Below are positions 4,751-11,771 of a stretch of DNA of 64,000 bases, one piece after another. The translations under genes were made by a program, and so were the position numbers. This DNA is from Acidobacteriota bacterium (GTDB lineage: Bacteria; Acidobacteriota; Terriglobia; Acidiferrales; UBA7541): assembly GCA_023481105.1 (NCBI GenBank), contig JAMCWK010000151.1, positions 1 to 64,000 on the forward strand, read 5' to 3'. The notes below the pieces were generated by a model that made no database searches, was not told where the DNA came from, and saw only the letters and a list, made by a program, of their open reading frames with translations. Each line of letters opens with the position of its first letter. The stretch's first letter is position 1.

Positions 4751-4975
4751 CTAGCGTTCGACGTCGAAATAGATGCGCACGGTGGCGCGATAGCTCTTAA
4801 TCTTCTTTCCATCCAGCTCCATTTCCAGCTCATGCACGCGCGCCCACTTCATGCCGCGCACCGTGCGCCCGGCTTCCTCTACCGCGCTCTCCGCGGCCTT
4901 GGCAAAACTTTCCTTCGACACGCCGACCACTTCCGTCACTTTCTGTGTCATGGACTTTCCTCCGAACAGGGCCAT
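4751..4975 (-). CDS. Dodecin family flavin-binding protein
   Basis: MTQKVTEVVGVSKESFAKAAESAVEEAGRTVRGMKWARVHELEMELDGKKIKSYRATVRIYFDVER; size and motif typical of dodecin. Confidence 0.9.
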   Translation of the reverse strand: MALFGGKSMTQKVTEVVGVSKESFAKAAESAVEEAGRTVRGMKWARVHELEMELDGKKIKSYRATVRIYFDVER

Positions 4976-5070
4976 GCGTTTCCTCCTGCATCCAGAATAG
5001 AAAAACAAAGTCGAGATTAGTCCAGCGCAAAGGGCGGGGTCAATTGAATACCCAACATCCTTCTACGCAT

Positions 5071-6496: not shown

Positions 6497-8032
6497 ATGG
6501 TGAGCCCGAATTCAAAGTCAGCGCAGGCCGCACCGTCTTCGGCGCACGAGCACAGCGCCGAAGCCCGGCACAAGCTCGGCTTTGGCCATTGGATGCGCCG
6601 CGTGCTCGCCGAACACAACAATGCGGCGCACGAACTCCACCCGGATACGGTGCACGACCTGCGCGTCGCGCTGCGCCGCTGCCGCTCCATGGCGGACGGC
6701 TTGATGGAATTGGATTCCGACCGGGCGTGGCGCGACATGAAGAAGGCCGGGCGCAAACTGTTCCGCCGCCTGGGCGAGCTGCGCGACACGCACGTGATGA
6801 TTGACTGGGTGAAGAAGCTGGAGCCACCCGGCGACGTTGCTGCACAGCAACTTCTTGCTTCGCTGCACCAGCGCGAATGGCACCTGAAGCAGCAAACTAC
6901 CGCCGCAGTCACGCGGTTTGACCGCGCGCAATGGAAGGTATGGGCGAAATACTTGAACGACCGCGCGGTCCGCGTCCCGCTGGATGGCCCGGTGTTCCAG
7001 CACATTGCATTGCAGCGATGGCAGGAGGCTTACAATCTCCACCGCCGCGCTTTGCGCAACCGCAGCCGCGCCAGTTGGCACCGCCTGCGCATCGGCGTGA
7101 AACGCTTTCGCTATACGATCGAGAATTTTCTGCCCGGCGCGCACGCCGCCTGGGGCGACGACTTGAAGCACATTCAGGACCTGCTGGGCGAAGTGCACGA
7201 TCTGGACATGCTATGGACGGCGCTGGCGCGAACCGGCAAAACGTTCACAGCCGCGGAGCGCGCTCGCTGGCACGAAATCGTCGGCAAGGAGCGCCAGGCG
7301 CGGCTGGAGGCTTATCGCGAGAAAATGATGGGCCCGAATTCGCTGTGGAATGTGTGGCGCACCGGCCTGCCGCAAAATGAGGCGCTGGAATCCAGCGGTT
7401 TGGAAAAGCTGAGTGCCTGGGCTGGGCTGCGCGATCCGGAGGTCAGCCATTCGCGGCACGTGGCGCGGCTGGCATTGAATCTCTTTGATGGTCTCGCGGC
7501 CGCCGGACTTCCCGGCCCCTACCGCGACCCGCGCAACCGCCTGCTGCTCCATGCCGCGGCGTTGATGCACAACGTAGGGCACACCGGCGGACGCAAAGGC
7601 CACCACAAGGAATCCTACCGGCTGATTCGCACGATGAGCCCGCCCATCGGCTGGTCGGCGGAAGATCTGGAGATTGCCGCGCTGATTGCGCGTTATCACC
7701 GCGGCGCATGGCCGCGCGCGCAGCACGCCGGCTACAGCTCGCTCCAGCCCATTCGCCGCGAAACCGTGCTGCACCTCGGCGGCATTCTGCGTTTGGCGGC
7801 GGCCTTTGACCATGCGCATACACAAGCTGTGCGCAAGCTGCACGTGCAAAGCTCGCCCGAAGCGCTGTTCATCTGGGCGGAAGGCTACCGGCCCGCCGCT
7901 GAAAACGCGCGCATCCTCGCCGCGGAGCGCCACCTGCTCGAGCGCGCCTTGCGCAAGCCGGTGCTGATCCGCCCGCGTCCCGAAGGGCCGCACCAAATGC
8001 GGCTCGACGAAACTGCCATGCAGGTCGCCTGA
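6497..8032 (+). CDS. CHAD-domain protein with C-terminal Ppx-type HD-like domain
   Basis: N-terminal CHAD: VHDLRVALRRCRSMADGLMELD...WHRLRIGVKRFRYTIENFLP...LKHIQDLLGEVHDLDML. C-terminal SHSRHVARLALNLFDGL...LLLHAAALMHNVGHTGGRKGHHKESYRLI...IAALIARYHRG resembles the HD region of the neighbouring Ppx. Confidence 0.85.
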   Translation: MVSPNSKSAQAAPSSAHEHSAEARHKLGFGHWMRRVLAEHNNAAHELHPDTVHDLRVALRRCRSMADGLMELDSDRAWRDMKKAGRKLFRRLGELRDTHVMIDWVKKLEPPGDVAAQQLLASLHQREWHLKQQTTAAVTRFDRAQWKVWAKYLNDRAVRVPLDGPVFQHIALQRWQEAYNLHRRALRNRSRASWHRLRIGVKRFRYTIENFLPGAHAAWGDDLKHIQDLLGEVHDLDMLWTALARTGKTFTAAERARWHEIVGKERQARLEAYREKMMGPNSLWNVWRTGLPQNEALESSGLEKLSAWAGLRDPEVSHSRHVARLALNLFDGLAAAGLPGPYRDPRNRLLLHAAALMHNVGHTGGRKGHHKESYRLIRTMSPPIGWSAEDLEIAALIARYHRGAWPRAQHAGYSSLQPIRRETVLHLGGILRLAAAFDHAHTQAVRKLHVQSSPEALFIWAEGYRPAAENARILAAERHLLERALRKPVLIRPRPEGPHQMRLDETAMQVA

Positions 8033-8053
8033 ATTTGATTGGGTAGTGAAAGA

Positions 8054-8551
8054 TTACTCGCCGAGAGCGCGCAAAGTTCGCGGCGCGCACAGCCACAGCA
8101 GAATGCCCCGCGGCGGCGAAACCGCTTTCAACTCCAGGCAGGCCACGCCCGCCTTTTTCAGCGCGGTAACATTCCCGCGGCTGCCCAGCGCAAGCGCAAT
8201 CACTTCGTCCAAATGCGGCGCGTGGCCGAAGCACATCACTTCCTTGGCGCGGACGCGGGCCAGTTCGCGAAACAGCTCGTTTGGCTTGCGCTCGAAGAGA
8301 AGCGATTCTGTTTGCCGAATTTTGTCGCGAGAGAACCCCAGAACTTCCGCGGCAATTTCCGCTGTCTGCACCGCGCGCACATACGGGCTGCTCAGCATCG
8401 CCTCCGGTCGCACGCCCAAAGCGCGCAAGCCCATGGCCACCTCGCGCGTCTTCTCCCTGCCCTTCTTGGTGAGATAACGCTCGGGGTCGGGAGGACACTC
8501 GGGGTCCTCGCGGTCAATGGCAATTCCGTGACGCATTAAGTAGAGCAGCAT
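8054..8551 (-). CDS. sixA: Phosphohistidine phosphatase SixA-like (histidine phosphatase superfamily)
   Basis: MLLYLMRHGIAIDRE...RYLTKKGREKTREVAMGLRALGV...LSSPYVRAVQTAEIA...MCFGHAPHLDEVIALAL. Confidence 0.85.
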   Translation of the reverse strand: MLLYLMRHGIAIDREDPECPPDPERYLTKKGREKTREVAMGLRALGVRPEAMLSSPYVRAVQTAEIAAEVLGFSRDKIRQTESLLFERKPNELFRELARVRAKEVMCFGHAPHLDEVIALALGSRGNVTALKKAGVACLELKAVSPPRGILLWLCAPRTLRALGE

Positions 8552-8607
8552 GGCGGTTGTAGATCGTCCTCTCTAATTCCGTTTTCGCGAACGCGGCGGG
8601 CTTGCCA

Positions 8608-10164
8608 TCACGCAACCTTCCGCATGCTCAGGCTGCGCGTGAATACGGCGCGCAGGCCGAATTCTTCTTCGAACAGCGCGGCCTTGCGTTGCGCGCCCCA
8701 GGCCGGCAAATTGGAGGCTTTCTTCGTGCGCACGCGGAAGACCGCGTCGCGGCGGTGGGTCTCCAAGTCCACGCGCAATACGGATTGCTTGTGATCGTCG
8801 TCCAGACCTTCCGCCAGGCGCAGCAGAGCGGATAGCGCGCGCACGTTGGTGCGTTGCTGCGGTTCGAGCGATGCGTACAGCTTGTGCCCCATGTCTGGCT
8901 CGGACTGCTTGTTATGATAGCGCACCAGGCACGCCACCATCGCTCTGCGCCAGCCGCGCAGCTCGGGCAAGTCCGCATTGCGCACCAGATATTCGCCGTG
9001 CTTGTGATGCCCATCGCGGTTCACGACGCGGCCGATGTCATGAAACCGCGCGCCCAGCTCCAGCACCAGCCGCATGTCCGGCCCCATGCCGTGGATGGAG
9101 CGGAGCTGGTCGAACAATGAGAGAGCGATGCGCACGACCTGGTGGGCGTGCTCGGCTCCATCTTCAAAGCGCGCGGCAAAGCGTTCGGCGGCCGCACGCA
9201 GCAACGCAGCATGCGCCTCGTCTTGCGCCAACGGCGCGCGCGCAAAATGCTCGCGCACGAGCTCGTGCAGGATTCCCTCGCGCACGCCCACGCCGGGAAC
9301 CAGGAAGCGGCCGGTGCCATACCAGCGGCCGAGCGTGGTGAAGACGATGGCGGCGATGGCCATGACGTCGGCGCGGTCTTCGCGCACATGAAATACCTTC
9401 ATGCGTTTCGGCACGCTCAGCCCGGCGATTTCCCACATTCGTTCACGGAGCACGCGCAGATTCATCGTGGGAATCCCGCGCAGCAAAGGACCCGGGGCGA
9501 GATTGGCCAGCGCTTCGGCATTGCCGCCGCAGGCTACGGCCACGGCGCTCTCCGAGATTGGCCGCGCGGCCAGGCTGCTCTCCAGCACGTTGACGATGTG
9601 CGCGCGCAAGCGACGGATGTCCTCCTCGCTCAAGGAGCCGCGGAGGTCGTAGGTCTCCATCAGGCGCACAGTGCCCAACGGAAGGCCCACGCTTTGTTCC
9701 ACTTCGCCTTGATTGAGGAGGTCGAGGTCCAGGCTGCCGCCGCCGAGGTCGAGGATCATCCGCGGTGAAAGATCGGCGCCGAGCACCTTGAGCACCGCCC
9801 CGCGCACCAGTCGCGCTTCTTCCGCACTGCCGATTACATCCACGGTGATGCGCGCTTCGCGGCGGATGCGCTCCAAAAATTCTCGGCGGTTGCGCGCTTC
9901 GCGCGTGGCGCTGGTGGCCACGGCGCGGTAGCGCGTCACGCCGTAGCGGTCCAACAAGCGGCGGAAATGCTGGAAGGCCTCCACGCCGCAGGCGATGGTC
10001 TTGGGCTCGAAACGATGCTTTACAAAAACGCTGCGCCCGAGACGCAGGGGGAAGCGCTCGGTTTTCAGGATTTCAATGCGCGAAGAGGAGAAAGCGCGGG
10101 CAATCACCAACCGGATGGCATTGGACCCGGCATCAATCGCGGCGATCTGGAGCGGAGCGGGCAA
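8608..10164 (-). CDS. ppx: Exopolyphosphatase / pppGpp phosphatase family (Ppx/GppA) with C-terminal HD domain
   Basis: IAAIDAGSNAIRLVIARA...MILDLGGGSLDLDLL...ACGGNAEAL; C-terminal GARFHDIGRVVNRDGHHKHGEYLV. Confidence 0.9.
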   Translation of the reverse strand: MPAPLQIAAIDAGSNAIRLVIARAFSSSRIEILKTERFPLRLGRSVFVKHRFEPKTIACGVEAFQHFRRLLDRYGVTRYRAVATSATREARNRREFLERIRREARITVDVIGSAEEARLVRGAVLKVLGADLSPRMILDLGGGSLDLDLLNQGEVEQSVGLPLGTVRLMETYDLRGSLSEEDIRRLRAHIVNVLESSLAARPISESAVAVACGGNAEALANLAPGPLLRGIPTMNLRVLRERMWEIAGLSVPKRMKVFHVREDRADVMAIAAIVFTTLGRWYGTGRFLVPGVGVREGILHELVREHFARAPLAQDEAHAALLRAAAERFAARFEDGAEHAHQVVRIALSLFDQLRSIHGMGPDMRLVLELGARFHDIGRVVNRDGHHKHGEYLVRNADLPELRGWRRAMVACLVRYHNKQSEPDMGHKLYASLEPQQRTNVRALSALLRLAEGLDDDHKQSVLRVDLETHRRDAVFRVRTKKASNLPAWGAQRKAALFEEEFGLRAVFTRSLSMRKVA

Positions 10165-10167
10165 CGT

Positions 10168-10977
10168 TTATCGCCACAAGTGCGCCAGGGCGTGGGACGG
10201 CTGGTAGCGCGTGCTGCGAATGTGCAGCCGCGCGGCGATGGCCTTGCGCAAGTCGCGGTTGATCTCCGGTACGCTGCGCTCTCCGTCCAGGCGTTTCAGC
10301 CCGTAATGCTTGGCGAGAAAATCAAACTCCTTGCGAATCATGGTCTGGTAGCGGACGAATGACTGGTAAAGGTCGGACGAAAGGAACATGTCCCGGCCCG
10401 CCTCCCAGTAGCTGATGGCCTGCGACTTTTTGAACAGGCGCTCGAAAGCCATTTCCGGGCGCACGTCCAGCCAGATGGTCAGGTCCGGCCGCAGGGCCTT
10501 CTCGTAAATGCCGTGGAGATATTGGCGGTGCAGGCCGCGCGCCACGCCGCGCGCAATCAGCGTGTAGATGTAGCGGTCGGCGAGCACGATGAGCCCGGAA
10601 CGCAGCGCGGGAAGAATGCGGTTCTCGAGCTGGTCGTAAAAATCGGTGGCGTACATCAGCGCCAGCGTCAGGCGCGTGACGGTATTCTCGCCGAGCAGCA
10701 CGTCAATGTCCTTCGCCAGCAGCGAGGAGCGGCGCAAACCCATCGTCTGCACCGCGAAGCCCTGCGATTCCAGCCACTCCGTGACCAGCGCAATCTGCGT
10801 GGAGCGGCCGGAGCCGTCCGTGCCTTCCAGCACAAACAGAGCTCCGCCCATGTCCTCGGCAGTTTCTGGCTCCCGCAGCGCATGGGGCTTTGCCGGCGCC
10901 TTCGCCGGCGCCGCTTCCGGCGGCGGCTGACCGTTGGAAGGAGTCGTGGCTTTCGATTTTTTGTTGGCGCGTTTCAT
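10168..10977 (-). CDS. Thymidylate-kinase-like protein, paralog A (Walker A Lys replaced by Arg)
   Basis: LFVLEGTDGSGRSTQIALVTEWLESQGF...VLADRYIYTLIARGVARGL. Start ATG 10977 overlaps the upstream stop (ATGA). Confidence 0.85.
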   Translation of the reverse strand: MKRANKKSKATTPSNGQPPPEAAPAKAPAKPHALREPETAEDMGGALFVLEGTDGSGRSTQIALVTEWLESQGFAVQTMGLRRSSLLAKDIDVLLGENTVTRLTLALMYATDFYDQLENRILPALRSGLIVLADRYIYTLIARGVARGLHRQYLHGIYEKALRPDLTIWLDVRPEMAFERLFKKSQAISYWEAGRDMFLSSDLYQSFVRYQTMIRKEFDFLAKHYGLKRLDGERSVPEINRDLRKAIAARLHIRSTRYQPSHALAHLWR

Positions 10978-11771
10978 TTTTGCGTCCGAAAACGATTCAG
11001 GTCCACGCGTGCCTGCAGCATTTCGCGCATCTGCTTTTGCAGCTTGTTCACCAGTTGCGTTCCGTCCATCAGCACAAAATTGTCGGTGTCCACCATGCGG
11101 TCGTAGGCGTCCAGGATCATGCCCTGGAAAATCCGGAAACTTTCCGCGCGGTCGTACGCCAGGCTCAGATCCATGCCCGCTTCGTAGTACTTCAGCTTGG
11201 GGCGCCCGCTCAGGATGCGTTGCACGGCCACTTCCAGCGGCGCACGGAAATAAAAGGTGATGTCCGGCACGGGCGCGAAGGCGTACAAGTTGCGCAGCCA
11301 TTCCGGCGAGCAGCCGCGCGCCGAATCGCGCGCAAAGGCGGTGTAGATGTAGCGGTCCGCCAACACCAGGTAACCGCCCTGCAACAGCGGAAAAATCTGC
11401 CGCTCGAAGCGGTCGGCAAAGTCCGCGGCATGAATCAGGGAGTACGTCGTCGGCGTGAGCATGCGGCGCTGTTTGCCGCGCCGGGTGGCCGACTTCACCA
11501 GCGGCGAGGAGTTCCACTCCGTGAAGTGCAGGCGGTAGCCGCTGATTTCCAGCCAGCGCTTCAGCAGGTAGAGCTGCGTGCTCTTTCCGGAGCCGTCAAT
11601 TCCCTCCACGACCACGAGCGCGCCGGTGTACTTGCGCTTGGGAAAATGCTTGGCGGAATCGGGCCGCTCGGCGGCTTGGTCCACAACAGCGGTATCAGAT
11701 TTTTCACTCATCAGGTCGTTGGTCAAATCAACAGTTTGCAAGATCGGGCGTGACGCTTGCGTGACATCCAC
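10974..11771 (-). CDS. Thymidylate-kinase-like protein, paralog B (canonical GSGKST P-loop); alternative start 11711
   Basis: ALVVVEGIDGSGKSTQLYLLKRWLEISGY...VLADRYIYTAFARDSARGC. Confidence 0.85.
   Translation of the reverse strand: MDVTQASRPILQTVDLTNDLMSEKSDTAVVDQAAERPDSAKHFPKRKYTGALVVVEGIDGSGKSTQLYLLKRWLEISGYRLHFTEWNSSPLVKSATRRGKQRRMLTPTTYSLIHAADFADRFERQIFPLLQGGYLVLADRYIYTAFARDSARGCSPEWLRNLYAFAPVPDITFYFRAPLEVAVQRILSGRPKLKYYEAGMDLSLAYDRAESFRIFQGMILDAYDRMVDTDNFVLMDGTQLVNKLQKQMREMLQARVDLNRFRTQK

Follow-up and report, generated by a model that had tools for sequence, protein, structure and literature searches.

A tandem pair of thymidylate kinase-like proteins encoded beside polyphosphate genes in an Acidobacteriota bacterium: a putative two-subunit polyphosphate kinase

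We analysed a 64,000-nucleotide window (positions 1 to 64,000 of contig JAMCWK010000151.1, assembly GCA_023481105.1) from an Acidobacteriota bacterium, the source genome being a 3.4 Mb draft that is 85% complete. Reading of the window sequence together with profile searches confirms all five genes of a locus that a preliminary description had reported, namely a CHAD-HD gene, a SixA gene, a Ppx-HD gene and two tandem genes related to thymidylate kinase (Tmk), which we name TmkB and TmkA, and the ATGA overlap and the 3-nucleotide gap noted there are present as well, with the TTG start of Ppx (10164) following 3 nucleotides past the TmkA stop (10168). The positions and domain matches are collected in Table 1; the start codons of TmkB (GTG at 11771) and Ppx (TTG) are uncertain. 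We concentrate here on the function of the TmkB-TmkA pair. Where loci, genomes, contigs and families have to be told apart they carry the prefixes L, G, C and f.

Table 1. Genes and features of the polyphosphate locus (window coordinates)
Feature	Coordinates	Strand	Basis
CHAD domain fused to a Ppx/GppA-type domain III (HD fold)	6497..8032	+	PF05235 E 2.7e-25; PF21447 E 2.8e-14
SixA-type RHG histidine phosphatase	8054..8551	-	TIGR00249 77.1 bits, above cut-off 74.5
Ppx/GppA exopolyphosphatase with C-terminal domain III/HD	8608..10164	-	PF02541 E 4e-39; PF21447 E 2e-23
TmkA, Tmk superfamily, Walker-A Lys to Arg (EGTDGSGRST); putative non-canonical partner subunit	10168..10977	-	PF02223 E 1.5e-20
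ATGA start/stop overlap of TmkB and TmkA	10974..10977	-	TmkA ATG 10977-10975; TmkB TGA 10976-10974
TmkB, Tmk-superfamily P-loop kinase, Walker A intact (EGIDGSGKST); putative catalytic chain of a polyphosphate kinase	10974..11771	-	PF02223 E 1.9e-19

A scan of GTDB 220 with one genome per species returned at least 532 relatives, and the neighbour counts over 80 loci given here come from the best 80. These best 80 of at least 532 include archaea (Sulfolobus, Nitrososphaerota, Thermoplasmatota and Methanoliparum) and a wide range of bacteria (Acidobacteriota, Verrucomicrobiota, Planctomycetota, Chloroflexota, Nitrospirota, Melainabacteria, Myxococcota, Gemmatimonadota, Omnitrophota, Hydrogenedentota, Sumerlaeota, Actinomycetota, Bacillota and others). 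The partner gene is present at every judgeable locus, and these loci represent over 15 phyla of bacteria and archaea; the sole exception is a contig that stops at TmkB. The two genes lie on the same strand in the order TmkB then TmkA at 109 of 110 loci; a median of 84 nucleotides separates the stop of TmkB from the P-loop of TmkA, and 51 of the 110 pairs have a 4-nucleotide NTGA overlap. In label-free clustering of the 80 loci the three commonest neighbours are Ppx (27), CHAD (21) and SixA (12), in agreement with the earlier view of a polyphosphate-centred locus, and control loci (eight around a third tmk gene and 20 short ones around the canonical tmk) are without Ppx, CHAD or SixA. The TmkB-TmkA-Ppx-SixA-CHAD module recurs, reshuffled, within the family and the class, and the conservation of the neighbourhood extends to other phyla including Sulfolobus, as the preliminary description had expected of a genuine system; because of this recurrence the five-gene arrangement is far beyond chance.

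Lesser recurring neighbours are the polyphosphate kinase PPK2, PhoU and a ROK-family kinase. PhoU-domain proteins lie within 5 kb of the pair at L141, L159, L174 and L177, which ties it to phosphate control. The ROK family includes polyphosphate glucokinases, and a ROK-family sugar kinase stands beside the pair at L112:9384-10397 and also at L103, L142, L143 and L146.

Both proteins match PF02223 and have the Tmk fold, as judged by profile search and AlphaFold models (predicted local distance difference test 89 for both, 88.9 for TmkB). The nearest relative of TmkB is Sulfolobus tokodaii ST1543 (PDB 2plr; E 3e-62, 46% identity), which is likewise the nearest PDB entry to TmkA (E 1e-36), with bacterial Tmks at about 1e-12 for each. 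The ST1543 structures are also the top fold matches, the best for TmkB being 5h70 with a template modelling score of 0.94 (normalised to 5h70). In a tree of 86 proteins TmkA forms a clade (support 98/99), as do the ordinary Tmks (100/97), and TmkB stands apart from both; the long branch of one misread row, L085_f1tmk, drags the midpoint root into TmkB, so that TmkB is shown as two changes. By sequence and tree membership the window genes thus encode a Tmk-like pair of the ST1543 type. TmkA and TmkB each span the archaea and many bacterial phyla, and the split between them therefore predates this spread or was carried through it. The TmkA and TmkB distances are correlated (Mantel r 0.76, 0 of 5000 permutations). 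The kinship with PPK2 that had been raised on the grounds of a shared P-loop fold did not survive profile and structure comparisons: PPK2 is absent from the 60 top-scoring matches to each of the two family profiles, its only trace being a P-loop-level match to TmkA (E 0.84), neither protein matches PF03976 (PPK2), and PPK2 is not a leading structural or sequence relative of either.

Residues were compared over 111 TmkB, 110 TmkA and 20 canonical Tmk sequences, some of the loci being near-duplicates. The Walker A lysine of TmkB (Lys63) is kept in 111 of 111 sequences, and the DR motif (139-140) is likewise invariant. By contrast with canonical Tmks, the deoxythymidine monophosphate (dTMP) site of TmkB is replaced almost throughout, with Trp86-Asn87-Ser88-Ser89 (TEWNSS) at the position of E-P-G-G (TREPGG), Phe118 at the position of the invariant arginine (FAARxQ) and Arg148-Asp149 (ARD) at the position of Y-Q-G (AYQG). 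These motifs serve the dTMP site in known Tmks, in which the invariant arginine contacts the thymine ring. The substitutions WNSS, Phe and ARD are found in 99-100% of the 111 TmkB sequences, and in its lid region TmkB has acquired the motif E-A-G-x-D (197-201), which is invariant. The dTMP-site motifs are substituted in TmkA too, and 102 of its 110 sequences have an arginine (Arg61) in place of the Walker A lysine, which makes it unlikely that TmkA acts as an ordinary P-loop kinase. The remaining eight belong to the Gastranaerophilales and their kin (L111, L119, L120, L137, L145, L156, L160 and L175); they keep the lysine, have the motif SEWKTS, and apparently represent an early-branching form of the pair. 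The missing Walker A lysine of TmkA had been overlooked in the preliminary description, as had the fact that the gene set is common to Sulfolobus.

The polyphosphate kinase PPK1 (PF02503) was not found in the source genome, at its 85% completeness, nor in 33 of the 37 family members counted with it, and is absent from 37 of 50 pair-bearing genomes across many phyla. We scored PPK1 and the pair in 109 genomes drawn evenly from the phylum, 66 of them Ppx-positive, and in a close and class-level set of 61 genomes with 46 Ppx-positive members. The 66 Ppx-positive phylum genomes comprise 15 with the pair only, 46 with PPK1 only, two with both and three with neither (p 3.7e-10). Those with the pair only span eight families (f1, f14, f17, f26, f27, f41, f53 and f55), and family f41 holds both states, with PPK1 in G103 and G113 and the pair in G139 and G162. 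All 46 Ppx-positive genomes of the 61-genome set have the pair or PPK1 (42 have one, four have both), a count in which the pair of G009 is assumed, one of its Tmks not being listed; outside the family, 13 of 13 Ppx-positive genomes of this set have exactly one of the two. Among the Ppx-positive phylum genomes, the distance to Ppx is no more than 10 kb for the pair in 13 of 17 and for PPK1 in about 16 of 48, by hand count. The pair and PPK1 thus occupy the same operon slot.

Because the pair stands in for PPK1 in its pattern of occurrence, we favour the reading, with a probability of roughly 0.7, that TmkB and TmkA together form a putative two-subunit polyphosphate kinase that is built on the thymidylate-kinase fold and fills the PPK1 slot. 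The computed features (gene order, family membership, loss of dTMP-site residues, the lysine-to-arginine change, co-occurrence and PPK1 exclusion) lead us to infer polyphosphate synthesis, a heteromer and a division of labour between its chains. The preliminary description had proposed nucleotide kinases tied to polyphosphate; the tie to polyphosphate stands, whereas the nucleotide-kinase role is less favoured, the occurrence as a PPK1 substitute suggesting synthesis. TmkB, which carries the ATP-binding P-loop, would be the catalytic subunit and would transfer phosphate between ATP/ADP and polyphosphate seated in the former dTMP site. TmkA would be its obligate partner, with a probable role in holding or placing either the polymer or the nucleotide, and the two are perhaps a heterodimer comparable to the Tmk homodimer. 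Ppx would strip terminal phosphates and CHAD bind the polymer, while the probable substrate of SixA is a phosphohistidine protein or an end of the polyphosphate. The pair, Ppx, CHAD and SixA together would then constitute a polyphosphate cycle, and the operon would be a stand-in for the ppk1-ppx operon in an organism that lacks PPK1.

The pair could instead consume polyphosphate, spending it on nucleoside mono- or diphosphates in a manner that is PPK2-like in effect, as the nucleotide-kinase fold, the polyphosphate neighbours and the recurrence of PPK2 among them would allow. We consider this unlikely, since what the pair excludes is PPK1 and not PPK2, with which it has no association (p 0.37), and since nine genomes with the pair and Ppx, in which PPK1 and PPK2 are both missing, would be left with no known maker of the polymer. 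In the source genome two PPK2 genes are adjacent (C100:26502-28104), a tandem that is repeated in several relatives.

A further question is how the pair relates to the housekeeping Tmk. In a PF02223 search of 60 close and class-level genomes most have the tandem pair, usually with at least one additional Tmk elsewhere; in genomes outside the family this is a canonical tmk with a strong match (E about 1e-45), and in most family members a divergent third Tmk. In the source genome the two genes of the window pair are the only ones that pass the PF02223 threshold. However, with the third Tmk of a sister species as query we located a match to its final 40 residues (75% identity) at C90:96632-96751, where the contig ends at 96758, and the separate tmk of this genome is thus cut by the assembly. 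The pair as the housekeeping tmk of the genome was accordingly rejected, in line with the earlier proposal, given a second tmk in relatives and the tail of one at a contig end in the source genome. The separate tmk of the family (L081-L088) stands unusually far from the Tmks of other bacteria, with an FPRE-type motif and PF02223 E of about 1e-20 to 1e-26. Some class members also have a lone third Tmk-like subfamily with an intact Walker A and a clade of its own (98/90), at L067:445-1284, L071:5461-6288 and L072:5599-6414.

TmkA does score above the NCBIfam dTMP kinase cut-off (85.5 versus 83.25 bits), and this, together with the deposition of ST1543 as a dTMP kinase, is what would be expected if the two proteins were extra or variant kinases of dTMP or another nucleoside monophosphate whose place in an operon of polyphosphate genes is incidental. 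That is improbable: there is the separate tmk of relatives, present in part in the source genome, TREPGG, the thymine-contacting arginine and the YQ of AYQG are all substituted, and neither the polyphosphate context nor the exclusion of PPK1 would be explained. Least probable of all, and to our minds very much so, is a pair that serves as a regulator or helper of a different polyphosphate-making enzyme (PPK2 or one as yet unknown), such as an ATP-driven factor that handles granules or chains; this would suit a TmkA without its Walker A lysine and the PPK2 of the source genome, but not the full conservation of the P-loop and DR motif in TmkB or the genomes in which the pair and Ppx are found with PPK1 and PPK2 both absent.

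Several observations weigh against a two-subunit polyphosphate kinase. No Ppx, CHAD or SixA is seen at 34 of the 80 loci, although in some cases the contig is short, and acidobacterial sequences were the source of the CHAD model. The pair and PPK1 occur together in six close or class-level relatives and in two phylum genomes, and the PPK1 and pair counts and their p value treat genomes as independent despite shared ancestry. PPK2, present in two copies in the source genome and also in many relatives, could make polyphosphate, and the PDB entries name ST1543 a dTMP kinase. A 'distinct' polyphosphate kinase family from Crenarchaeota (a Sulfolobus species) has reportedly been described by Hofmann et al. 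2026 (doi 10.1016/j.jbc.2026.111283, as cited in PMC13318637). We think it likely that this is the family of the Tmk-like pair; such a description speaks for our interpretation, and the unconfirmed identity against it. The novelty of the pair as a polyphosphate kinase depends on this identity.

The Sulfolobales provide the closest known counterpart of the locus. They accumulate polyphosphate, and no PPK homologue was known from them as of 2021 (PMC7831078), which also favours a polyphosphate kinase role for the pair; biomining archaea have a conserved cluster of SixA, PPX, 'dTMP kinase' and CHAD, in which the kinase is left unexplained in the portion of the source that was available (PMC10892726, Figure 2). 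The window pair is linked to SixA, Ppx and CHAD as in this cluster, the gene set is the same, TmkB is 41-46% identical, and the Sulfolobus TmkA also has the lysine-to-arginine change, although it is very divergent (28% identical to the window TmkA). In a Sulfolobus metagenome-assembled genome (L101) SixA, Ppx, TmkB and TmkA are collinear; CHAD beside this locus was not confirmed by Pfam, but PMC10892726 shows it in the cluster of other Sulfolobales. The window differs in having the pair before Ppx, a convergent CHAD gene, and HD-type extensions on CHAD and Ppx. ST1543, the 'probable thymidylate kinase' of S. tokodaii (PDB 2plr, 4nzy, 4rzx and 5h70), shares sequence family and fold with the pair, but is deposited as a single dTMP kinase with no partner chain in those entries. 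PPK1-ppx operons share the place beside ppx and apparently the role, but PPK1 has no sequence relation to the pair, and the PPK2 family (PF03976), while also composed of P-loop kinases acting with polyphosphate, is matched at the P-loop level at most.

Among the other genes of the locus, the CHAD-HD protein carries a domain of a type known to bind polyphosphate (PMC6537752). Its HD motif is H-N (LMHNVG) in the window and in the sister species and H-D in L076, L091, L092 and L093, and the metal site may be lost, decayed or regulatory. The SixA motifs RHG, SSPYxRAxQTA and GHxP were all seen by eye. The best NCBIfam match of Ppx, TIGR03706, is under its cut-off; Ppx and GppA are inseparable by sequence here, and no (p)ppGpp-specific feature was found in the neighbourhood. 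A dodecin gene is also present in the window at 4751-5008 on the minus strand (PF07311, E 2e-19).

We give about even odds to a broader proposition, that a two-subunit polyphosphate kinase of the Tmk superfamily, in which one chain is catalytic and the other almost always has arginine for its Walker A lysine, is spread across Archaea and many bacterial phyla, is the missing synthase in a large share of organisms without PPK1, and is misannotated as dTMP kinase. The capacity for polyphosphate in genomes and metagenomes is currently scored by PPK1 and PPK2, and if the proposition is true many soil, sediment and archaeal organisms that are scored as lacking a synthase would have one under the label of dTMP kinase. 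It would also be a clear case of a P-loop nucleotide kinase family that has exchanged its nucleotide acceptor for an inorganic polymer, and one in which the key lysine of the partner chain was lost early and stayed lost.

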